Source: Saccharopolyspora rhizosphaerae (GTDB lineage Bacteria > Actinomycetota > Actinomycetes > Mycobacteriales > Pseudonocardiaceae). Taken from it: a stretch of DNA of 64,000 nucleotides. The notes beneath the pieces were generated by a model. It did not search any database, was not told the origin of the DNA, and saw only the letters and a program-made list of their open reading frames with translations. The DNA is taken from positions 62,001 to 126,000 of the forward strand of contig NZ_RSAA01000017.1 in assembly GCF_003931915.1 (NCBI RefSeq), given 5' to 3'. The translations under genes and the position numbers were made by a program. The first letter of the stretch is position 1. Every line of letters begins with the position of its first letter. Below, in pieces: positions 3,560 to 14,908 of this stretch.

Positions 3560-4591
3560 CTAGCGCAAACGGAGGTCCTTCACCGCTCGCCAGGCCAGTT
3601 CGGCTTGGCGCTGTTCGGCGTCGGCTCGTTCTCCGACGTCGTAGCCGTCGTCGCCCATGTGCCCCGCTTCGTAGCGCGCGCGGACGCCTGCGGTGATGCA
3701 GCAGGAGCGCCAACGCTGGAACGCCACGTAGAACGGCAGGTCCGACAGGTCGCGGCCGGTGAGCTCGGCGTAGCGGGCGATGAGGTCGTCACGGCTCGGG
3801 AACCCCGGTTCGGCCGTGGGGCCTGGTGTGACCGGTGCGTAGTCGTCGCCGGGTTCTTCCCAGGTGGCGATGAGCCAGCCGAGGTCGGCCAGGGGTTCGC
3901 CCAGCGTGGCCAGTTCCCAGTCGAAGACGGCGAGGACCTCCCCGTCGGCGCCGTAGGAGAGGTTCCCGGGCCGGAAGTCGCCGTGCACGATGCCGGTGGT
4001 CTGCTCGGGGACGTTGGCGGCCAGCGCGTCGTGCACCTCGTCCAGCAGCGCCAGGTCAGGTGCTCCGGAGGCGTGGACTTGCTTCTGCCAGCGCCGCAGC
4101 TGTCGCTGGAGGTAGCCGTCGCGGCGGGCCACGTCACCGAGCCCGACGGCGTCGGGGTCGAGGTTGTGCAACGCGGACATGCACTCCACGGTCGCCGTGC
4201 CCGCCCGCGCCCGCGCGTCGAGCGAGAACCCGGCGGTGGAGTCGCGGTCGGCGAGCACGGTGCCGTCGACGAAGTCCATCACGTAGAACGTCGCGCCGGT
4301 GACCTCGGTGTCCTCGCAGTACGCGAGCGGGGTGGGCACTGGGACGTCGGTGCCGTGCAGCGCGGAGATGAACCGCCACTCGCGGCTCATGTCGTGCGCG
4401 GTGCTGAGCACTCCCCCGGTGGGTGGCCGGCGCAGCGCACGCACCTCCCCATCGGCGCCGGTGACCCGGTAGGTCAGGTTCGACCTGCCGCCCGAGACCA
4501 GCGAGAACTCCACCGGTGCCGGCACGCCGCGCTCGGCGAGCCAGCGGGTGACCGCTTCCCGTTCGATGCCTGGCAGTGCCACCACGCTCAC
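3560..4591 (-). CDS. phosphotransferase (APH/ACAD10-11 kinase-like), second kinase of the acyl-CoA operon
   Basis: Kinase-fold protein of 343 residues, resembling the N-terminal domain of ACAD10/ACAD11 and bacterial LvaA. Conserved pieces are the glycine-rich start SGGRSNLTYRV, the catalytic loop IVHGDFRPGN (about residues 194-203) and the metal-binding VFDWELATLGEPLADLGW. Family members phosphorylate small hydroxylated metabolites, in the best-known cases 4-hydroxyacyl-CoA. The GTG start at 4591 overlaps the stop of the ligase gene by 4 bases (GTGA), so the two are translationally coupled. It is the last gene of the operon. The exact substrate is inference from neighbours. Confidence 0.85.
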   Translation of the reverse strand: MSVVALPGIEREAVTRWLAERGVPAPVEFSLVSGGRSNLTYRVTGADGEVRALRRPPTGGVLSTAHDMSREWRFISALHGTDVPVPTPLAYCEDTEVTGATFYVMDFVDGTVLADRDSTAGFSLDARARAGTATVECMSALHNLDPDAVGLGDVARRDGYLQRQLRRWQKQVHASGAPDLALLDEVHDALAANVPEQTTGIVHGDFRPGNLSYGADGEVLAVFDWELATLGEPLADLGWLIATWEEPGDDYAPVTPGPTAEPGFPSRDDLIARYAELTGRDLSDLPFYVAFQRWRSCCITAGVRARYEAGHMGDDGYDVGERADAEQRQAELAWRAVKDLRLR

Positions 4592-6243
4592 CCCTGCTGC
4601 ACGATCTGCTCGCGCAGGCGGCGCTTGAGGACCTTGCCGGTCGCGGTGCGCGGCAGCGGGTCCTCGCGCACCACCACGTGCGCCGGAACCTTGAACCCCG
4701 CCAAGCGCTTCCGGACGTGCGCGCGCAGTTCTTCCACGTCCGCGTTCGTCTTCAGGTTCACCACCGCGCAGACCTCCTCGCCGAGGGTGCGGTGCGGCAG
4801 CCCGATCACGGCGACGTCGGCGATCGCGGGGTGCTCGTGCAGGGCCGCTTCGACCTCCGCGCAGTAGACGTTCTCGCCACCCCGGATCACGACGTCCTTG
4901 AGCCGGTCCACGACGTAGACCCAGCCGTCCCGGGTGTAGCCGAGGTCGCCGGTGTGGAACCAGCCGTCGGTGAAGGCGTCCGCGGTGGCCTCCGGCATGT
5001 TCCAGTACCCGCGCACCACGTTGGGGCCGCGGAACCACAGCTCGCCGATCTCCCCGTCCCCGAGGTCGTCGCCGGTAGCCGGGTCGACGGTGCGGATCTC
5101 CGCACCCGGCATGAGCCGGCCGACGCTGTCGGAGTGCTCCTGGTAGTCCTCGCCCGAGTTGCCGACGACCGTGGAGGTCGTCTCGGTCAAGCCGTAGCCG
5201 CTCGAGGCGCTGCTGCCGAGCCCGCCGATGCGCTGCACCAGGTCCGGAGGGATCGGCGCGCCGCCCATCGTGACGCCGTCCAACCCGTGCACGGCCTCGC
5301 TGTTCTCGACCAGGTCGCGCATCACCGTGGGCACCCCGGCGGCGCTGCTGAGCTGGTGGTCGCGGATGAGCTCCTCGGCCTGCTCACGGTCCCAGCGGTA
5401 CATCGTGGCGAGCTTCGCGCCCGCGAGGGTGGTGAAGCACAGCATGGTGATGCCGGCGATGTGGAACATCGGGAAGGTCAGCAGCGCGCCCGGCTGCGGG
5501 TCGTCCGGACCGGGTTCCGGGAAGACGCCACCGTTCTCGAGGGCCATGCCGACCTTGCGGTTGACCACCGTGTTGAGCAGGTTGGTGACGTGGTTGCGGT
5601 GCGTGCCGACCGCGCCTTTGGGGCGTCCGGTGGTGCCCGAGGTGTAGAGGATCGTGGCGTCGTCGTCCGGGTCGATGGTGACCTCGGGCGGGTGCACGTC
5701 GGCCGGGATGCTCGCGACCAGGTCCGACCACGCCCGCACCCCGGGCCCGGACTCTCCGCCGCGCACCTCGACGACCGGCACCTCGCGGCCGAGGAGGGCG
5801 GCGCGTTCGGGGTCGGCGAAGACCAGCTTCGCGCCGCTGTCCCTCATGCCGTAGCGCAGTTCGTCCTCGCTCCACCAGGCGTTGAGCGGGACGGCGACGA
5901 GCCCGGCCACCTGGACGGCCCAGAAGATCGGCGCCCACTCCGGGAAGTTGCGCATCGCGATGGCCACGCGATCGCCGCCGGTCAAGCCGTACTCCTCGCG
6001 CAGCGCCCGGGCCAGGCCGGCGACCAACCGCTGGTGCTCGCTGAAGGTGCAGCGGTAGTCCTCGTAGACGAGGAAGTCCTTGTCACCGTGGAAAGCGCTG
6101 AGCAGCGCCGCGTCGCGCAACGTCTGGAGCGGTTTCGCGTAGACGCGCATGGGGATGCCGCGCACGACGGCATCGGTCATCTCGAACTCGCCACCGGGTC
6201 CGATGAGTTCTTCCAACAGGCGTTCGCGCAGCTCGTCAGGCAC
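4588..6243 (-). CDS. AMP-forming acyl-CoA ligase (FadD-like)
   Basis: Activates a carboxylic acid to its CoA thioester through an acyl-adenylate. The 551-residue protein has the P-loop-like motif ILYTSGTTGRPKGAVGTH (about residues 203-220), the GYGLTETTS motif of the acyl site, and the hinge region WFHTGDLGYTRDG followed by VIRGGENVYCAEVE and the catalytic lysine in PRTATGKVLKRRLRE. The GTG at 6243 was chosen: GGGGAGG precedes it, and it overlaps the end of the upstream kinase gene by 8 bases. In this operon it would supply the CoA ester consumed by the dehydrogenase and hydratase. Chain length preference cannot be read. Confidence 0.92.
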   Translation of the reverse strand: MPDELRERLLEELIGPGGEFEMTDAVVRGIPMRVYAKPLQTLRDAALLSAFHGDKDFLVYEDYRCTFSEHQRLVAGLARALREEYGLTGGDRVAIAMRNFPEWAPIFWAVQVAGLVAVPLNAWWSEDELRYGMRDSGAKLVFADPERAALLGREVPVVEVRGGESGPGVRAWSDLVASIPADVHPPEVTIDPDDDATILYTSGTTGRPKGAVGTHRNHVTNLLNTVVNRKVGMALENGGVFPEPGPDDPQPGALLTFPMFHIAGITMLCFTTLAGAKLATMYRWDREQAEELIRDHQLSSAAGVPTVMRDLVENSEAVHGLDGVTMGGAPIPPDLVQRIGGLGSSASSGYGLTETTSTVVGNSGEDYQEHSDSVGRLMPGAEIRTVDPATGDDLGDGEIGELWFRGPNVVRGYWNMPEATADAFTDGWFHTGDLGYTRDGWVYVVDRLKDVVIRGGENVYCAEVEAALHEHPAIADVAVIGLPHRTLGEEVCAVVNLKTNADVEELRAHVRKRLAGFKVPAHVVVREDPLPRTATGKVLKRRLREQIVQQG

Positions 6244-7585
6244 CGTTGCCTCCCCTGGTCCTCGCCTCGGTGTGCTTCGGGTTGGCGACCGCGAGCCGGT
6301 CCGACACCTCCGACCACAGCAGCGCGGCCACGTCCTGCTTCCACGGGTCCGCCTCACCGACCCGCAGCGCCGCTGCCAGGGCGGCACGATCGGCGAAGCC
6401 GAGTTCCTCGAGCCGTGCGCGGTGCCGTCGCTCCTGCTCGGCACCGAGCCGCAACTCACGCTCCACAGTGGACAACACGTTCGCGGCCACCAGCGACTGG
6501 AACCGCATCCGGCCCTCAGCACCGGCCAGCACCTCGTCGCGCAGGAAGTCCCGCGCCGCCGCGATGAGCTCGGCCGCCGTCGGACGACCGTGCAGGTCCG
6601 AGGCGGGACTCTCCACCTGCTTGGGAGGTTCCGGCTCGGGGATCCCGAGGGCGAGGAGCAGGTCCTGCTCCTGTTCGCAGACCCGGCGGCCGATCGCGGC
6701 GAGCTCGACCGACGGGTGCGCGCCGCTGAGGTGCTGCTCGGCTTGGGCCCGGCAGATCACGCCCCACTTGGTGGTGCCGAAGACCTCCCACCAGCGCACC
6801 ACCTCCGGGTCCGGGCGCACGCCCGCGATCTCGGCGTAACCGTCGAAGAGGTCGTCGAGCTCGCCGAAACCACCGACGGGCAGCGGTGATCCGAAGCGCC
6901 ACGCGTTGGTGCACAGCCAGCCCAGGTCCTCCATCGGGTCACCGACGTGCACGAGCTCCCAGTCGAGCACCGCTCGCAACCCGCTCGGGTCGACGATCAG
7001 GTTGCCGTTGCGGAAGTCGCCGTGCACCAGCGTTCGACCTGACTCGGACGGCTGGTTCTCCCGCAACCAGCGGAAGGCGATCTCCACGGCCGGGATCGGA
7101 TCGCCCAGCGCGTCGTAGTCGGCGACGAGCTGCTCGAGCGGATCGGACTCGGGCACGCCTTCCGGCGGCGCGATCCGGTGGACGCGGGCAGCGGCTCGGC
7201 CCAGTTCGCGGGCGAGCCCGCTGCGCGCGGCGGCGTAGCGGTCGTCGCGCAGCAGGCGTCGCGGTATGGTCTCGCCGTCGACGTGCTCGGTCAGCACGTA
7301 GGGTGAGCCCAACACGGACTCGTCGATGCTGTGGTCGACCACCCGCGGCACCGGGACCCCGGCTTCGGCGGCGGCGTCGAGCACCACCGCCTCCCGCGCC
7401 ATGCCCTCCGGCCGGGCCAGGCCGGGCGGGTCGCGGCGCAGCACCAGCCGTTCGGAGGTGACGAGCTCGATGAACCACGTCTCGCGGCTCGCGCCACCGC
7501 TCGCCTGCTCCAGCCGCGTCACCTGCACCGGGCGCCCGCGGAGTTCACCCAGCCGCTGCGCCAGACGATCGCCGAGCTCGCTCAT
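6236..7585 (-). CDS. phosphotransferase kinase fused to a C-terminal DUF6285 domain
   Basis: Two-part protein of 449 residues. Residues 1-330 form an APH/ACAD10-11-like kinase: ASGGASRETW nucleotide loop, LVHGDFRNGN catalytic loop and VLDWELVHVGDPMEDLGW metal site. Residues from about 340 carry a separate helical domain beginning GRPTAAELIAAARDFL and ending near SDRLAVANPKHTEA, matching DUF6285, which elsewhere is a free-standing small protein beside such kinases. The fusion argues that both act together. Start ATG 7585 overlaps the dehydrogenase stop by 4 bases (ATGA). By analogy to LvaA/LvaB it may phosphorylate a hydroxyacyl-CoA; this is inference. Confidence 0.85.
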   Translation of the reverse strand: MSELGDRLAQRLGELRGRPVQVTRLEQASGGASRETWFIELVTSERLVLRRDPPGLARPEGMAREAVVLDAAAEAGVPVPRVVDHSIDESVLGSPYVLTEHVDGETIPRRLLRDDRYAAARSGLARELGRAAARVHRIAPPEGVPESDPLEQLVADYDALGDPIPAVEIAFRWLRENQPSESGRTLVHGDFRNGNLIVDPSGLRAVLDWELVHVGDPMEDLGWLCTNAWRFGSPLPVGGFGELDDLFDGYAEIAGVRPDPEVVRWWEVFGTTKWGVICRAQAEQHLSGAHPSVELAAIGRRVCEQEQDLLLALGIPEPEPPKQVESPASDLHGRPTAAELIAAARDFLRDEVLAGAEGRMRFQSLVAANVLSTVERELRLGAEQERRHRARLEELGFADRAALAAALRVGEADPWKQDVAALLWSEVSDRLAVANPKHTEARTRGGNGA

Positions 7586-8838
7586 GGCCGCTTCCCCGGG
7601 CCTGCGAAACCGAACAGGTAGGCCGCGACCTTGCGCATCTGCACCTCTTCGGCGCCCTCGGTGATCCGGTAGCGGCGGTGGTGCCGGTAGATGTGCTCGA
7701 AGGGCGTGTGCCGGGTGTAGCCGAGCCCGCCGTGCACCTGGATCGCCCGGTCGGCCGCGTCACACACCAGGCGGTTCGCCCGGTAGTTGCACATCGAGAC
7801 CTTGTCGCTGATCTCGAAGTTCGGCCGCCGGTCCATCTCCCACGCGGTCTTGCGGACCAGGCCGCGCACCATCTCGGCCTCGCTCTGCAGCTCCACCAGG
7901 GGCCACTGGATCGCCTGCCTGCGCGCCAGCGGCTGGCCGAACGTGACGCGCTCACGGGCGTGCTCGACGCTGCGGTCGATGCAGAACTGCGCAGCACCGA
8001 CACCGGAAGCGGCCTGCCGGATGCGGTTCTCGTGCACGAAGCACTGCGCCAGCTCCAGGCCCACGCCCTCGTCACCGAACATCGCCGAGGAGGGCACCCG
8101 CACGTCGCGCAGCGTCACCTCGGCGTGGTCGGTGGGCATGTTGAAGGTCCACCAGTGGAAGTCCACCGAGAAGCCCGGTGCGTCGGTCGGCACGATGAAC
8201 GCGGTGATCCCCCGCGCGTCACCCGGCTCCCCGGAGGTGCGGGCGAACACGACGTCGTGCGTGGCGGAGTGCATGCCCGAGTTGAACCGCTTGCCGCCGT
8301 TGATGATCCAGTCGCCACCGTCGCGGACGGCGGTGGTCTCCAGCCAGGTCGCGTCGCTGCCGTGGTCGGGTTCGGTGAGGCCGAACCCGAGCCGGGCGTC
8401 ACCGGTGAGCATCGGCTGCAGGAGCTCCTGCCGCTGCGCCTCGGTCCCGAACTCCAGCATCATGTGCACGACGGGGAAGTTGCCGACGACGGAGGCTTCG
8501 TTCTGCAGGTCGTTGTGCAGCCCAAGGCCTTTGGCGGCGAGGTGCTCGCGGATGACGGCCATCTCGAAGTTGCCGCCGCCTCCGCCACCGACTTCCTCGG
8601 GCAAACCGTAGCGCAGCCATCCGGCTGCGTCGGCGCGGCGGGCCATCTCGCGCAGCAGCGCTTCCCACTCGGGGCGCGGCGTGCCACCGGCCTCGAAGTC
8701 GGTGCGCGCGAACTCGCGCCGGTGGTCGAAGAACCGCTCGTTGTCGTCCTGCTGCTGCAGCGGGACGATCTCGTTCTCGATGAACTCGTCGAGCTTCCCG
8801 AGCAGTGCGACGAGCTCGCTGGGCAGTGAGAAGTCCAT
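7582..8838 (-). CDS. acyl-CoA dehydrogenase family protein
   Basis: FAD-dependent enzyme of 418 residues with the complete three-part acyl-CoA dehydrogenase fold. Recognised features are GFGLTEPDHGSDA (FAD and substrate loop), the middle beta domain ITAFIVPTDAPGF, RVTFGQPLARRQAIQW, IQVHGGLGYTRHTPFE and the end motif YRITEGAEEVQMR, whose glutamate is the position of the catalytic base in medium-chain enzymes. A good ribosome site (AAGGAGG) precedes ATG 8838. Lying between a hydratase and a kinase, it could either make the 2,3-double bond or, as in ACAD10/11 and LvaC, process a phosphorylated acyl-CoA. Confidence 0.92.
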   Translation of the reverse strand: MDFSLPSELVALLGKLDEFIENEIVPLQQQDDNERFFDHRREFARTDFEAGGTPRPEWEALLREMARRADAAGWLRYGLPEEVGGGGGGNFEMAVIREHLAAKGLGLHNDLQNEASVVGNFPVVHMMLEFGTEAQRQELLQPMLTGDARLGFGLTEPDHGSDATWLETTAVRDGGDWIINGGKRFNSGMHSATHDVVFARTSGEPGDARGITAFIVPTDAPGFSVDFHWWTFNMPTDHAEVTLRDVRVPSSAMFGDEGVGLELAQCFVHENRIRQAASGVGAAQFCIDRSVEHARERVTFGQPLARRQAIQWPLVELQSEAEMVRGLVRKTAWEMDRRPNFEISDKVSMCNYRANRLVCDAADRAIQVHGGLGYTRHTPFEHIYRHHRRYRITEGAEEVQMRKVAAYLFGFAGPGKRP

Positions 8839-8900
8839 GCAGCCTCCTTAGCGCCCGTTCAGTGACCTTAAGCACACGTCCACAGCGACACAAGGGGACG

Positions 8901-9692
8901 TCAGTCGAGCAACCACTCGCCGGTGAACTCCGGCTCGGTCTTGTTCACGAAGGCTCGGAACGCCGCGGGCGCGTCGGCGGTCGCGAAGTTCACGCTCTGG
9001 CTGCGCGCCTCGGTCTCCAGCGCCTCGCGGAAGGACTGCTGACCTGCGGCGTTGAGCATCGCCTTGCTCTGCGAGATCGCCACCGGGGCGCCCGCCGCGA
9101 GGCGGTCGGCGAGGTCGTCGACGAAGCCGTCGAGTTCCCCGTCCTCCTTGACCCAGGTCACCAGGCCGAGATCGCGGGCCTCCTGGGCGCCGATGATCTC
9201 GCCGAGCAGCGCGAGCCGCTTGGCCTGCTGCAACCCGACCACGCGCGGCAGCAGCCAGGAGCCGCCGAAGTCCAGCGACAGACCGCGCTTGGCGAAGATC
9301 TGCGAGAACCGCGCCTCCGGGCTCGCCACCACGAGGTCACAACCCAGCGCCAGGTTCCAGCCCGCTCCCACCGCCACGCCGCGCACCTTGGCGATCACCG
9401 GCTTGGACAGCTCGTGCAGGGCCAGCGCGACGTCGTTGACCCGGTGCATCCGGGCCAGGGGGTGCCCGTCGCGCCCGGCGGCGAGGTCGGCGCCGGCGCA
9501 GAAGTCGCCCCCGGCCCCGGTGAGCACGACGGCGCGCACGCCCTCGTCGAGCTCGGCCTCGCGCAGGGCCTCCTGCAGAGAACCCCAGGTCGGGACGTCG
9601 ATGGCGTTCTTGCGATGCGGCCGGTTCAGCGTCACCGACAACACGGCTCCGCGCCGCTCCACCAGAACGGTGTCACTGTCCACTGTGCTCAC
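8901..9692 (-). CDS. enoyl-CoA hydratase/isomerase family protein
   Basis: Crotonase-fold protein of 263 residues, first gene of the acyl-CoA operon. The oxyanion-hole segments are GAGGDFCAGADLAAG and GVAVGAGWNLALGCDLV. In the second active-site region it has RGLSLDFGGSWLLPR, with aspartate rather than the paired glutamates of classical hydratases, a pattern more like PaaG-type isomerase/hydratases. GTG 9692 was chosen as start because the preceding frame is promoter sequence containing an operator-like palindrome (9723-9738). It is followed after 62 bases by the dehydrogenase gene and is divergent from the AraC-type regulator. Confidence 0.88.
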   Translation of the reverse strand: MSTVDSDTVLVERRGAVLSVTLNRPHRKNAIDVPTWGSLQEALREAELDEGVRAVVLTGAGGDFCAGADLAAGRDGHPLARMHRVNDVALALHELSKPVIAKVRGVAVGAGWNLALGCDLVVASPEARFSQIFAKRGLSLDFGGSWLLPRVVGLQQAKRLALLGEIIGAQEARDLGLVTWVKEDGELDGFVDDLADRLAAGAPVAISQSKAMLNAAGQQSFREALETEARSQSVNFATADAPAAFRAFVNKTEPEFTGEWLLD

Positions 9693-9722
9693 ACGCCCTC
9701 CCCGACCAAGAACTCCGCTGTC

Positions 9723-9738
9723 CTTATCGATCGCTAAG
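9723..9738. promoter_or_regulatory. near-perfect 16-bp palindrome between acyl-CoA operon and AraC gene
   Basis: CTTATCGATCGCTAAG reads as its own reverse complement except for one pair. It lies 31 bases upstream of the hydratase start and about 157 upstream of the regulator start, and is followed by GTTAAC. Its low GC stands out from the surroundings. It is a candidate operator for the divergent promoters; the binding protein is not known. Confidence 0.45.
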
Positions 9739-9894
9739 TTAACACCCGGAACGGCCGAACGGCACCGTCCGAGAGCGATCAGTCCGGCGAGGTTCCCCCG
9801 TGCGGAGGTTCCCCGGACAGGGCGGACACGGCGCTTCTCCCCCGTGGGAGGATCTGACCTTCGAGCGTCGTCGCCAGTCGGAAGTGATCGACAG

Positions 9895-10920
9895 ATGACC
9901 GTGACCTTGCGAACCGACACGGTGCCGGACCCGCGGGACCGGCACGAGTACCTCCGGCAGATCGTCCGTGACACGGTGGTTCCGCTGAACCTCCACCAGG
10001 AGCGGTCGAAGGTGAACCACTGGGGCGAAGTGATCCGCACTGACCTGCCGTGCGGCTCAGTGGCGCGGATGAGCGCGTACCCGACCCACATCGAGCGCAC
10101 GCCGAGGTTGATCCGCGAGGCAGACCCCGACCTCTGCCAGGTGCAGATGCACCTGGAGGGGACGAACCAGATCACCGAGGGCGACGAGCGAGCTCAGATC
10201 GGCCCGGGGGAGGTCGTCGTCTTCGACCCGCACGAGCCCTTCGACGCCGCCGTCGGCCACCCCGTACCCGGTCAGGCGAGCGACGGGATCGCGCGCGTGG
10301 TCAACCTGATGCTGCCGAGACCGATGCTCGACCTGCGCGGCCCCCGGGACCGGATCACCCAAGCGCGGCTGTCGTGCCGGAACCCGATGAACTCGCTGGC
10401 CGCGTCCGCGATGGCCGAGCTCGACCGGCAGCACCTGGCGGGCAACACCGACCTCGTCGTCCACCTCACCTCCGTGATCGCCGACCTGCTCAGCTTCGGC
10501 CTGGCCCACCAGCTCGAATCACTCTCCGCGGTGACGCCGGAGACCCGGGAGAACGCCCTGCTCTGGAGCGTGCGCAGGTTCATCGAGGAGCACCTCGCCG
10601 ATCCCTCGCTCACCACCCGCACCGTCGCGGAGGCGCACAACGTCGCTCCCCGCACGCTGCAGCGGCTGTTCCAGCGCGAGGGGACCTCCGTGGTCGACCA
10701 CATCCGGGACCGACGCCTGGACCGGTGCCGACGAGACCTGCTCGACCCGTCCCAGCGCGGGAAACCGGTTGCCGCCATCGCGTTCCGGTGGGGGTTCCGC
10801 GACGAGTCCCACTTCAGCCGGAGGTTCCGGGACCGCTACGGAGCCCCGCCCGGCGCTTACCGCGATGCCGCTGAGCGATCTGTCGCGAACGGCCACCCTC
10901 CCGGCGCGAACGGCCAATGA
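9895..10920 (+). CDS. AraC family transcriptional regulator
   Basis: Regulator of 341 residues. The N-terminal two thirds form a cupin-like effector domain of the AraC_binding_2 type (GTNQITEGDERAQIGPGEVVVFDP). The C-terminus holds the double helix-turn-helix: helix pairs around LTTRTVAEAHNVAPRTLQRLFQREG and VAAIAFRWGFRDESHFSRRFRDRYGAPPG. ATG 9895 was chosen because the longer open frame upstream is out of family. Divergent placement makes it the likely regulator of the hydratase-to-kinase operon. Effector probably an intermediate of that pathway (inference). Confidence 0.9.
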   Translation: MTVTLRTDTVPDPRDRHEYLRQIVRDTVVPLNLHQERSKVNHWGEVIRTDLPCGSVARMSAYPTHIERTPRLIREADPDLCQVQMHLEGTNQITEGDERAQIGPGEVVVFDPHEPFDAAVGHPVPGQASDGIARVVNLMLPRPMLDLRGPRDRITQARLSCRNPMNSLAASAMAELDRQHLAGNTDLVVHLTSVIADLLSFGLAHQLESLSAVTPETRENALLWSVRRFIEEHLADPSLTTRTVAEAHNVAPRTLQRLFQREGTSVVDHIRDRRLDRCRRDLLDPSQRGKPVAAIAFRWGFRDESHFSRRFRDRYGAPPGAYRDAAERSVANGHPPGANGQ

Positions 10921-12359: not shown

Positions 12360-13652
12360 TCAGGACTCGTCGCCCGCGACGTACGGGATGGTCTGCGGGC
12401 CCTCCGGGAGGACGCACACCCGGGCTTCCGGACCTCGGGCCGCGAGCTCTTCCTCGACGGCCGCGGCGATGTCGTCGACCCGGTAGAGGTGGGCCGTGCG
12501 CAGCTGCTCGTCGGTGAGGTTGGTGGTGTGCACGCCGACGCGGGCGGTGGCCAGCACGCGGGCGAGGATCTGGACCTGCCACTGGTCGGGGACGGTCTCG
12601 GTCCTGGCCGAGATGGTCCGCAGCAGGGCTTCCGGCGTCGGCTCGGAGGCCAGGACCTCGCGGAACGACCCGTGGTCGGGGAAGCCGTCGCTGCACTCGG
12701 CCGCGCAGATGATGAGCCCGCCGGGTTCGACCACCGTCGCCGCGGCGGTCATGCCCTTGACCGCCTGGTAGACGTTCTGGTCCAGCGGGAACCCGGAGTT
12801 GGTGGTGACGACGACGTCGTAGCGCTGCGGGACCGGCTGCATCGACAGCTCGCGGACGACTTCGCGCGCGGTGGCGTGCATGGGCAGCAGATCACCGCCG
12901 AAGGCCTCGACGATCCGCTGCTCGCGGTTGAGCACCACGTCGAAGGCGAAGTCCACGCCGGTTCCCTCGGCGATGGCGCGGACGTCGTCGTGCACCGGGT
13001 TGCCCTCGCACACCGCCCAGGTCGCCTGCGGGCTGGCGATGCGCGCCGCGTCGTGCAGCGTGAGCACGGTGTCCAACCCCGCCAAGCCCGGTGCGACCAG
13101 CTTCGGGCCGCCGCTGAACCCCGCGAAGAAGTGGGGTTCGACGAACCCGGTGGTGATCCGGACGTCGGCGTCCACCCAGTGCCGGTTGAGCCACACCGGC
13201 ACGCCGTCGCCGAAGGTGCCCATCGGTCGCAGCGCCTCGGGGTCGCGGCAGTCGTGGTTGATGACGCGCATCGTCTCGACCAGCTCGTCACCGAGCATCG
13301 CCCGCAACTCGTCGTCGGTGTTGCCGCGGTGCGTGCCGGTGGCCACCAGCAGCGTGAAGTCGTCGCGCGTCGCGATGCCTTCCAGCTCCGCCAGCAGCGC
13401 CCGGACCATCGCCTCGCGCGGCTGCGGGCGCGTGAGGTCGCAGAGCGACACCGCGATCCGCTGACCCGGCCGCACCCGCTCGCGCAGCGGCGGGCCGGCG
13501 ACCGGCTCGGCGAGCGCCTTGCGCAGCGCCACCTCCGCGTCGGGCGCGGCCTGCGGGTGGGCCGGCGCCACCACGGTCGTGCGCTCGGACGGCAGCTCCA
13601 CGGTCAAGCCCGACCGGCCGTAGGCCAGCTCGACGGACACCTTCTCGGACAT
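12360..13652 (-). CDS. larA: LarA-family protein (DUF2088, nickel-pincer racemase/epimerase)
   Basis: The 430-residue protein has the LarA fold: N-terminal DUF2088 domain with VSLCDLTRPQP and LVATGTHRGNTDDE, then the cofactor site GFVEPHFFAGFSGGPKLVAPG, whose histidine and lysine match the nickel ligand and the lysine that carries the pincer nucleotide in LarA, and a third histidine in TVLTLHDAARI. LarA enzymes racemise or epimerise alpha-hydroxy acids using a nickel pincer cofactor made by LarB, LarC and LarE; none of these is in the window, so the cofactor must be made elsewhere. ATG 13652 has AGGAG six bases upstream. Substrate may be lactate or another 2-hydroxy acid. Confidence 0.82.
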   Translation of the reverse strand: MSEKVSVELAYGRSGLTVELPSERTTVVAPAHPQAAPDAEVALRKALAEPVAGPPLRERVRPGQRIAVSLCDLTRPQPREAMVRALLAELEGIATRDDFTLLVATGTHRGNTDDELRAMLGDELVETMRVINHDCRDPEALRPMGTFGDGVPVWLNRHWVDADVRITTGFVEPHFFAGFSGGPKLVAPGLAGLDTVLTLHDAARIASPQATWAVCEGNPVHDDVRAIAEGTGVDFAFDVVLNREQRIVEAFGGDLLPMHATAREVVRELSMQPVPQRYDVVVTTNSGFPLDQNVYQAVKGMTAAATVVEPGGLIICAAECSDGFPDHGSFREVLASEPTPEALLRTISARTETVPDQWQVQILARVLATARVGVHTTNLTDEQLRTAHLYRVDDIAAAVEEELAARGPEARVCVLPEGPQTIPYVAGDES

Positions 13653-14128
13653 CCACACTCCTGCTCCAGTCGTTCCTGCGTCCGATCCTGCCCTCGCGAA
13701 CACCCCGGCAGGAGCCGAAGTCGAGGTGACGCCTGCCTCTCCGGACGGCGCGACCGGTCGGCCCCCGCCCCCGTCGAGCCGGACGAGCACCCAGCGGAAC
13801 CCCGCGATCTCCGCCTCCGGGGGTGCCACCACCGAGCGGCCGAGCAGGGCTACCCCGGTCCACGGCGCGACCGACGTCGGGCACCCCCCCCGACCGAGCG
13901 ACAGCGTCCGCGCCGCGAAGGCCCTCAGCGGCGTGACCACTGTGGACGCAACAGGGCGCCACCCTTGCGAGGGGTGGCGACCACCTCGCGCGAAATGTCC
14001 ACCCCCCGCTCAGGTGACATCCCCGCGAGTACGCCGTGGGGGCATGCGGCAGGACGGCGCAGGGAGTCCGCGGAGCCGATCAGGTCCTGCTTCCCGCACC
14101 GCGGGGCGGAGCGGTCCGGTGCGACGTA
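13653..14128. other. gene-free interval of about 475 bases
   Basis: Holds the promoter side of the LarA-like gene and one hairpin (13957-13979). An open frame on the minus strand runs into the racemase gene, but its product shows no domain. Confidence 0.5.
13957..13979. terminator. hairpin downstream of the SGNH hydrolase gene
   Basis: Stem CGCCACCC/GGGTGGCG of 8 bp with a 7-base loop, about 150 bases past the hydrolase stop. Assigned as a terminator by position only. Confidence 0.35.
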
Positions 14129-14908
14129 TCAGCGGCTCGTCGTGGGTTGTGAGAGTGGCGCGAGCTGCGGGCGTTTGGCGGTGCGGCCGTCACCCGAGGA
14201 GCGGCCGGTGAGCCTGCGCCACACCCACGGCACCAGGAACACCGCGGCCCAGCGGACCTCCTCCCAGGCCGATCGGAGGAAGCCCGGCTCAGGACGGGTG
14301 GGCAAGGGCTCGCTCCACGACGTGTCGCTGTCCGGCAGTTCCAGCGCGCTGGCGGTGGCGGCGGCGAGCAGCGCGTGACCATCCGAGTTGAGGTGCAGCC
14401 GGTCGGTGCTCCAGATCCTGCGGTCGGCGCAGACCGGGTGGAGGTCGACCTCGACGAGCGCGGTGCCGTGCTTCGCCGCGATCTCGCGCACCCGGGTGTT
14501 GAACTCGGTGATCCGCGGTTGCCAGCGACGCGCCATCGGGGCGACCTGGCCGATGTCCGGGTAGGTCACCGTGACGACCCGCGCCCCGGCTTCGGTCAGG
14601 GCGGAGATCATCTGCTCCAGGCGGGCGGCGATCGCCTCTCCGTCGCACTCGCTGCGGAGCATGTCGTTGAGGCCGGCGACCACGGTGACGAGGTCAGGTT
14701 CGAGCTCCAGGGCAGGCTGGAGCTGTTCGGCGTGCACCTGGTCGATCAGCTTCCCGCGGACCGCGAGGTTGGCGTAGCGGAAGTCCGGGTTCAGCGCGGC
14801 CAGCCGTGCGGCGAGACGATCGGCCCAGCCGCGCAGACCGCTGTGGTCATCACCGTCGCCGACGCCTTCCGTCTGGCTGTCCCCGATCGCGACATACCTC
14901 GCGTACAT
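14129..14908 (-). CDS. SGNH/GDSL-family hydrolase
   Basis: Esterase/lipase-type hydrolase of 259 residues. Block I carries the nucleophile serine in YVAIGDSQTEGVGD (about residue 11), block III has GLNDML, and block V has DRLHLNSDGHALL with the catalytic Asp and His. The C-terminal 60 residues, including an aromatic stretch WAAVFLVPWVWRRLTG, resemble the tail of actinobacterial members and may touch the membrane. There is no signal peptide, so it is probably cytoplasmic or membrane-peripheral. The acyl ester substrate is unknown. It is divergent from the coiled-coil membrane protein gene. Confidence 0.85.
   Translation of the reverse strand: MYARYVAIGDSQTEGVGDGDDHSGLRGWADRLAARLAALNPDFRYANLAVRGKLIDQVHAEQLQPALELEPDLVTVVAGLNDMLRSECDGEAIAARLEQMISALTEAGARVVTVTYPDIGQVAPMARRWQPRITEFNTRVREIAAKHGTALVEVDLHPVCADRRIWSTDRLHLNSDGHALLAAATASALELPDSDTSWSEPLPTRPEPGFLRSAWEEVRWAAVFLVPWVWRRLTGRSSGDGRTAKRPQLAPLSQPTTSR

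Follow-up and report, generated by a model that had tools for sequence, protein, structure and literature searches.

A predicted hydroxy-acid operon of Saccharopolyspora rhizosphaerae joins an LvaA–LvaB fusion kinase to a dehydrogenase family lacking the ACAD10/11 phosphate clamp

Results

Overall content of the operon

A five-gene operon occupies 3560–9692 on the minus strand of a 64,000-nucleotide stretch of the Saccharopolyspora rhizosphaerae genome (contig NZ_RSAA01000017.1, positions 62,001–126,000; hereafter the window) and encodes, in order, a crotonase, an acyl-CoA dehydrogenase, a kinase–DUF6285 fusion (kinase 1), an AMP-forming ligase and a second kinase (kinase 2). Mammalian ACAD10/11 and the Lva proteins of Pseudomonas have only recently been recognized as catalyzing dehydration via phosphorylation, and the operon appears to represent a conserved and uncharacterized variant of this phosphorylation-dependent hydroxy-acid pathway. 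Its fusion kinase is predicted to be of the LvaAB type, and its dehydrogenase, named ACAD* here, has other residues in place of the phosphate clamp of ACAD10/11. The literature on lva, ACAD10/11 and actinobacterial lactone, kinase and dehydrogenase systems, searched by titles and abstracts, gave no description of the operon or of the ACAD* partner. A preliminary description had read these genes as a split ACAD10/11-like system; its observations and its view of LvaB stand, its hydroxy-acid theme is likely, and the ACAD10/11 nature of the operon's dehydrogenase is not supported.

Kinase 1 is a predicted fusion of LvaA and LvaB

In the lva operon of a Pseudomonas aeruginosa plasmid (L002), the small gene that NCBI names '4-hydroxypentanoyl-CoA kinase subunit LvaB' encodes a protein that matches PF19802 (DUF6285) with an E-value of 4.8e-24, and the small proteins adjoining the Thermus, Azoarcus and Sulfitobacter kinases likewise match PF19802. 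Since the named LvaB itself matches PF19802, DUF6285 is identified by sequence as the LvaB family, and kinase 1 as a putative LvaA–LvaB fusion. This match, together with the position of the kinase in the LvaA clade (see below), upholds the earlier suggestion that the DUF6285 tail is the LvaB counterpart by fusion; the profile search and the structure prediction proposed along with it gave, respectively, a DUF6285 match in the C-terminal part of the fusion, the same family as LvaB (Table 1), and a confident model. In this AlphaFold (AF2) model, with a mean predicted local distance difference test score (pLDDT) of 91.7, a predicted template modeling score (pTM) of 0.90 and low confidence at residues 443–449 alone, the C-terminal domain (residues 337–444) is helical, with helices at 337–355, 358–394, 400–408 and 417–434. 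According to Rand et al., as given in PMC6692424, LvaB (12 kDa) pulls down with LvaA, and strains mutated in lvaA, lvaB or lvaC fail to grow on levulinic acid. DUF6285 is present in a single copy, that of the window, in the 5.82 Mb assembly, and a literature search for DUF6285 found no paper.

A best-first listing, which favors fusions, gave APH and DUF6285 together in its 120 top homologues, the window protein among them. The 119 others rule out that the fusion is peculiar to this genome; it is therefore an established protein. A histidine phosphatase family gene lies downstream of the DUF6285 gene in Thermus (L003:7276-7929), Azoarcus (L005:7325-8002) and Azospirillum (L185:9220-9543). A histidine phosphatase gene is also described near lvaA in Pseudomonas citronellolis, where lvaB was not found, as stated in PMC6692424.

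The two kinases belong to different lineages

A 30-kinase tree, for which the program issued a long-branch warning, puts kinase 1 in the LvaA clade (17 rows, support 100/99) and kinase 2 in a second clade (10 rows, 100/99), together with the kinase that forms part of an ACAD10/11 pair encoded elsewhere in the genome. The catalytic motifs of APH-fold kinases, HxDxxxxN and DxE/D, take the form HGDFRNGN and DWE in kinase 1, where D190, R192, G194, N195, D208, W209 and E210 are invariant in 39 aligned homologues, and HGDFRPGN and DWE in kinase 2. By its motifs, its LvaB partner and its clade, kinase 1 is predicted to be an LvaAB-type hydroxyacyl-CoA kinase; it scores 60.3 bits against ACAD11 structures and 22.6 bits against 25-hydroxysteroid kinase (25-HSK). 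Kinase 2 matches 3dxp (1.6e-53), 9o56 (1.9e-47) and ACAD11 8v3v (2.2e-37, 132.2 bits) in the structure library and scores 53.8 bits against 25-HSK, which classifies it, at the sequence level, as an ACAD10/11-type kinase. These assignments support the view that the operon's kinases stem from two different known hydroxyacyl-CoA kinase lineages. The scores against 25-HSK rule out a close sequence kinship with either kinase, and this enzyme is a more distant relative. As reported in PMC11342911, bacterial relatives of LvaA and LvaC can substitute for the ACAD10 domains, and the ACAD10 kinase favors the R form; kinase 2 could take a different isomer from kinase 1, in line with the preliminary description.

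The dehydrogenase differs from ACAD10/11 at all four key positions

In the ACAD10/11 dehydrogenase, R626, H634 and R637 lie at the substrate phosphate and D753 acts as the base, and Ala or Leu at the three former positions are the most disruptive changes, as described in PMC12440821. We mapped the mouse numbering onto LvaC by counting along R-x4-R-x2-H-x2-R, the mouse sequence not being aligned in full. In our alignment, LvaC, the enzymes of Thermus and Azoarcus and a dehydrogenase encoded elsewhere in the same genome have R/H/R/D at the four positions, while the window enzyme has F267, Q275, S278 and E394. This last combination rules out the window dehydrogenase as an LvaC orthologue. The genuine split ACAD10/11 pair of S. 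rhizosphaerae sits on another contig (G000:C33:170828-173305; L097:6829-9306, hereafter the C33 pair), where an ACAD10/11-type kinase 45% identical to kinase 2 is directly followed by the R/H/R/D dehydrogenase; this contig has no DUF6285. With all four needed residues missing from the operon's enzyme, the label 'split ACAD10/11-like' had to be given up for the dehydrogenase.

The replacement is a property of a family. We collected the best 80 of 527 loci by similarity to ACAD*, so that the residue counts describe that family only, and aligned proteins from 79 of them. F, Q and E394 are found in 79/79, and S278 in 78, with Ala in the remaining one. The helix motif HENRIRQ at 269–275 is equally constant: H269, E270, N271, R272, R274 and Q275 are invariant in the 79 proteins, and residue 273 changes from Ile to Val once. 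Both HENRIRQ and a second invariant stretch, RHHRRYR, differ from ordinary dehydrogenases in the alignment. As judged from these residues, ACAD* is a distinct, widespread family without the R/H/R phosphate clamp and with Glu394 as the predicted base; R274, beside the H634 position on the same helix, could face the phosphate.

Whole-protein comparisons point the same way. ACAD* is 32% identical to LvaC and 31% to the C33 enzyme, and among solved structures it scores 175 bits against the ordinary acyl-CoA dehydrogenase 5ol2 and 129 bits against ACAD11. It forms its own clade in both trees that we calculated, with support of 82/57 in the first, which has very long branches, and 100/100 in the second; it is joined to the LvaC/ACAD11 clade at 92/87 in the second tree and stands apart from it in the first. 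An approximately unbiased test against a single clade of ACAD* and LvaC (p 0.0007) is void, the 'generic' row L055 being of the ACAD10/11 type. Among the matches listed, the closest named relatives of the window enzyme are from Saccharopolyspora (92–95%).

ACAD* is linked to kinase and LvaB genes across phyla

We searched a class sample of 148 genomes, S. rhizosphaerae included, with cut-offs of E <= 1e-150 for ACAD* and E <= 0.001 for DUF6285. ACAD* was found in 13 genomes, DUF6285 in 18 and both in 12 (Fisher p 1.6e-12). All 12 double carriers have the two on one contig and strand, with matches 11 to 1164 nt apart, and the thirteenth ACAD* genome (G106), which has no DUF6285, carries an APH-like kinase nearby. 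In each of the four genomes with DUF6285 over the cut-off and without ACAD*, an R/H/R/D (LvaC-type) dehydrogenase lies within 0.9 kb, distances being measured between stop-to-stop frames; two genomes with DUF6285 under the cut-off (G125 and G163) were left out of this reading.

Among 17 DUF6285 loci outside the ACAD*-selected set (the plasmid loci were hand-picked, 11 of 178 records), the nearest dehydrogenase is of the R/H/R/D type in 10, in one of which (L004) it is about 4 kb away, ACAD* in two (the window and Sulfitobacter) and an A/I/A/E type in two; none, or none that is clear, was seen in three (L006, L180 and L184). L180 is the second DUF6285 copy of G136, with no dehydrogenase in the stretch read. 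In Variovorax (L182 and L183), an LvaA/LvaB pair adjoins the third dehydrogenase type, with A/I/A/E at the key positions. DUF6285 loci carry R/H/R/D, ACAD* or third-type enzymes nearby, and the kinase module therefore has alternative dehydrogenase partners. The fusion is not tied to ACAD* either, as in L177 and L179 it has an R/H/R/D neighbor.

In the 80 ACAD* loci, where genes were called with a home-made heuristic based on third-codon-position GC (GC3) and L066 is missing from the gene-call counts (79/80), DUF6285 is present in 56 (50 fused and 6 split), 45 of them with DUF6285 on the ACAD* strand. Kinase-2 types occur in 25 loci, both DUF6285 and a kinase-2 type in 14 and neither in 13; an APH kinase of some kind is found in 67/80. 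ACAD* is common in Actinomycetes and also occurs in Acidobacteria, Proteobacteria and haloarchaea. On three haloarchaeal plasmids (L100:10001-12830, L101:10001-12822 and L102:8343-11233), ACAD* stands with a 157–159-residue protein and an APH kinase. By sequence this protein was rejected as DUF6285 (no Pfam hit over the cut-off, hhalign probability 6.6); its gene position alone suggests that it may be an unrecognized LvaB counterpart. A metagenome-assembled genome labelled Bifidobacterium breve (L093) contains the cluster in its mycobacterial form (CoA-transferase, ACAD*, kinase and DUF6285), on a contig that is probably mis-binned.

Gene organization and neighborhood

The coordinates bear out the preliminary account of five same-strand genes, four of them joined by 4- to 8-base overlaps: four nucleotides at 7582–7585, eight at 6236–6243 and four at 4588–4591, with a gap of 62 nt between the crotonase and dehydrogenase genes (Table 1). 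The gene content given there (two HGDFRxGN/DWE kinases, dehydrogenase, AMP-ligase, crotonase and DUF6285) was verified domain by domain with Pfam. The range of 3560–10920 holds for the operon up to 9692; the segment 9895–10920 is a divergent plus-strand regulator and no sixth operon gene. A promoter scan of 9600–10000 found no candidate. For the ligase, the closest NCBIfam model is steroid-24-oyl-CoA synthetase (432 bits, under the model cut-off of 750). The label 'hydratase' is correct as to the superfamily (ECH_1), but an Asp of the crotonase aligns with one in the 1,2-epoxyphenylacetyl-CoA isomerase 4fzw_C (PaaG-type), which we take to be the catalytic Asp of that isomerase; by this residue, the operon enzyme is as likely to be an isomerase as a hydratase. 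Past the regulator lie a gene for LarA, of the lactate-racemase family (12360–13940, minus strand), and a GDSL lipase gene (14129–14908, minus strand); the substrates of LarA-like enzymes are 2-hydroxy acids.

Table 1. Features of the operon and its regulator in the window
Feature	Position	Strand	Evidence and remarks
Crotonase-superfamily enzyme, 263 aa, operon gene 1	8901-9692	-	GTG start; ECH_1 6.6e-50 (Pfam)
Acyl-CoA dehydrogenase ACAD*, 418 aa	7582-8838	-	Acyl-CoA_dh N/M/C (Pfam)
LvaA-type kinase fused to LvaB/DUF6285 domain (predicted), 449 aa (kinase 1)	6236-7585	-	APH 1.7e-41, DUF6285 1e-21
DUF6285 (predicted LvaB) domain within the fusion, residues 356-437	6275-6520 (G000:C7:68275-68520)	-	PF19802
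AMP-forming acyl-CoA ligase, 551 aa	4588-6243	-	GTG start; AMP-binding 4.7e-79
Kinase 2, predicted APH kinase of the ACAD10/11 type, lacking an LvaB domain, 343 aa	3560-4591	-	GTG start; APH 2.4e-46
Divergent AraC/FeaR-like regulator	9895-10920	+	HTH_18 1.8e-22; FeaR model 137 bits, under cut-off 199

Hints at the substrate come from the sister loci. After dehydrogenase and kinase, the most frequent gene clusters of the 80 ACAD* loci are crotonases (39), TetR regulators (35), ligases (32), kinase 2 (22) and SMP-30/gluconolactonases (22), each cluster being named from its scanned members (for the lactonase cluster two, both PF08450). In 21 of its 22 loci the lactonase accompanies an LvaA-type kinase, from which it is no more than 100 nt away in 12. 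Where a lactonase adjoins a hydroxyacyl-CoA kinase and a CoA ligase, 4- or 5-hydroxy acids derived from lactones are suggested as substrates, so that hydroxy-acid degradation, as proposed in the preliminary description, is a likely theme. Elsewhere the neighbors differ, with a CoA-transferase and an HMGL-like lyase in the lactonase's stead in a mycobacterial locus (L090), and hydantoinase-type (L100 and L101) and LLM oxidoreductase genes in haloarchaeal loci; the substrates therefore probably vary between ACAD* loci.

Comparison with known systems

The operon resembles the Pseudomonas lva operon in having a kinase of the LvaA clade, an LvaB domain of the same Pfam family, an acyl-CoA ligase and a dehydrogenase; it differs in the fusion of LvaA and LvaB, the other family of its dehydrogenase and the additional kinase 2 and crotonase. 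No LvaD-type short-chain dehydrogenase/reductase, LvaR-type (PrpR-like) regulator or symporter was detected in the 13 window proteins scanned, and the operon was rejected as a full lvaABCDE set, as it has no such reductase and its regulator is AraC-type. Kinase 2 resembles the kinase domain of mammalian ACAD10 and ACAD11, whereas the window kinases and dehydrogenase are separate proteins and the dehydrogenase lacks R626, H634, R637 and the Asp base; the C33 dehydrogenase keeps R/H/R/D. The Sulfitobacter pontiacus plasmid (L007/L103) has the order ligase–kinase–LvaB–ACAD*–crotonase in one row, with a kinase of the LvaA type and an ACAD* of 66% identity, but its kinase and LvaB are unfused and it has two crotonases, a thiolase and a TRAP transporter.

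Discussion

The operon probably serves the kinase-activated breakdown of hydroxy acids, a claim common to the pathway proposed here and to the first alternative considered below. The ligase would form a hydroxyacyl-CoA, the hydroxyl group of which would be phosphorylated by the LvaA–LvaB fusion kinase, while kinase 2 may do the same for other substrates or isomers. We infer the substrate class and the phosphorylation site, which would most likely be C4 or C5 because lactones are hydrolyzed to acids of this kind. ACAD*, whose gene is translationally coupled to that of the kinase, would act on the phosphoacyl-CoA by means of Glu394 and FAD, with departure of the phosphate, and the crotonase would then move or hydrate the double bond so that β-oxidation could proceed. 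The action of ACAD* on the phosphorylated intermediate is the weakest step, one that we infer and to which we give somewhat less than an even chance. Our specific proposal, still more tentative, is that ACAD* is a second dehydrogenase family removing the phosphate introduced by LvaAB, with a Glu base and with the polar HENRIRQ helix replacing the R/H/R clamp; the removal would perhaps be oxidative, with a dienoyl-CoA product, or occur at another carbon. The exchange of ACAD* and LvaC-type enzymes beside the kinase–LvaB module, together with the coupling between ACAD* and kinase, argues for ACAD* acting on the phosphate.

Several observations weigh against the pathway proposed here. ACAD* has none of the residues at which changes do most damage to phosphate elimination in ACAD10/11. 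DUF6285 lies on the opposite strand from ACAD* in 11 of the 56 loci, no kinase was found in 13/80 ACAD* loci, also with a broader kinase profile, and the eight window neighbor frames scanned contain no lactonase. Eight ACAD* loci also carry an R/H/R/D dehydrogenase, namely 7/80 (six with the fusion, and L081) and the Sulfitobacter cluster. In L022 and L036 this enzyme lies directly behind kinase 2, and in Sulfitobacter (L103:5450-6703) it is a close relative of LvaC (463 bits), about 8 kb upstream of ACAD*; the presence of an R/H/R/D enzyme in that cluster makes the action of ACAD* on the phosphate, and our specific proposal with it, slightly less likely and a division of labor slightly more so. 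Beyond the loci themselves, the ACAD10/11 motif was detected in 49/50 genomes searched from the 56 ACAD* loci with DUF6285 (1/50 with the reversed pattern as control).

In such a division of labor, a distant ACAD10/11-type enzyme, here that of C33, would eliminate the phosphate and ACAD* would perform an ordinary oxidation at another step of the same pathway. This alternative, to which we give the same somewhat less than even chance as to ACAD* acting on the phosphate, accommodates the usual Glu base and missing phosphate clamp of ACAD*, the split pair in the same genome and the co-located R/H/R/D enzymes. It also agrees with the class sample, where the ACAD10/11 motif is found in 12/13 ACAD* genomes versus 65/135 others (p 0.0025; reversed control 10/148). 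The motif matches were not each read as proteins; of 12 relatives read, eight are R/H/R/D, two near-variants and two ordinary, and in G037 and G136, the two genomes negative for the motif, a protein search showed R/H/R/D enzymes with slightly altered motifs. A division of labor does not account for the kinase–LvaB module adjoining ACAD* or an LvaC-type enzyme, each in the other's place, nor for the invariance of HENRIRQ and RHHRRYR, unlike the ordinary dehydrogenases aligned.

Two further explanations appear very improbable. A straight ACAD10/11 system for 4-hydroxy acids, with the operon's own dehydrogenase eliminating the phosphate like ACAD10/11 and LvaC, would fit the lineages of both kinases and the LvaB domain but is largely contradicted by F/Q/S/E in place of R626/H634/R637/D753, the low identities to LvaC and the C33 enzyme and the separate clade in both trees. 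Equally poor are the prospects of an activation of tertiary alcohols like that by which sterol side chains are degraded anaerobically, with a steroid-like ligase feeding in: 25-HSK is the second Foldseek match, the steroid-24-oyl-CoA synthetase model is the nearest to the ligase and L090 has its HMGL-like lyase, but both kinases score far higher against ACAD11 than against 25-HSK and the ligase falls far under the model's cut-off. For 25-HSK, the phosphate-removing lyase is given as not known in PMC8449060.

The LvaAB kinase module is not bound to the one described dehydrogenase type, and ACAD*, whose active site differs, recurs as another partner; DUF6285 gains a name, LvaB. If ACAD* handles the phosphorylated intermediate, it would provide a second catalytic route, and two catalytic solutions would have come to work with the same kinase in bacteria and, to judge from the order of ACAD*, small protein and kinase, in haloarchaea. 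If it does not act on the phosphate, lactone and hydroxy-acid breakdown would be split between an operon and a distant gene.

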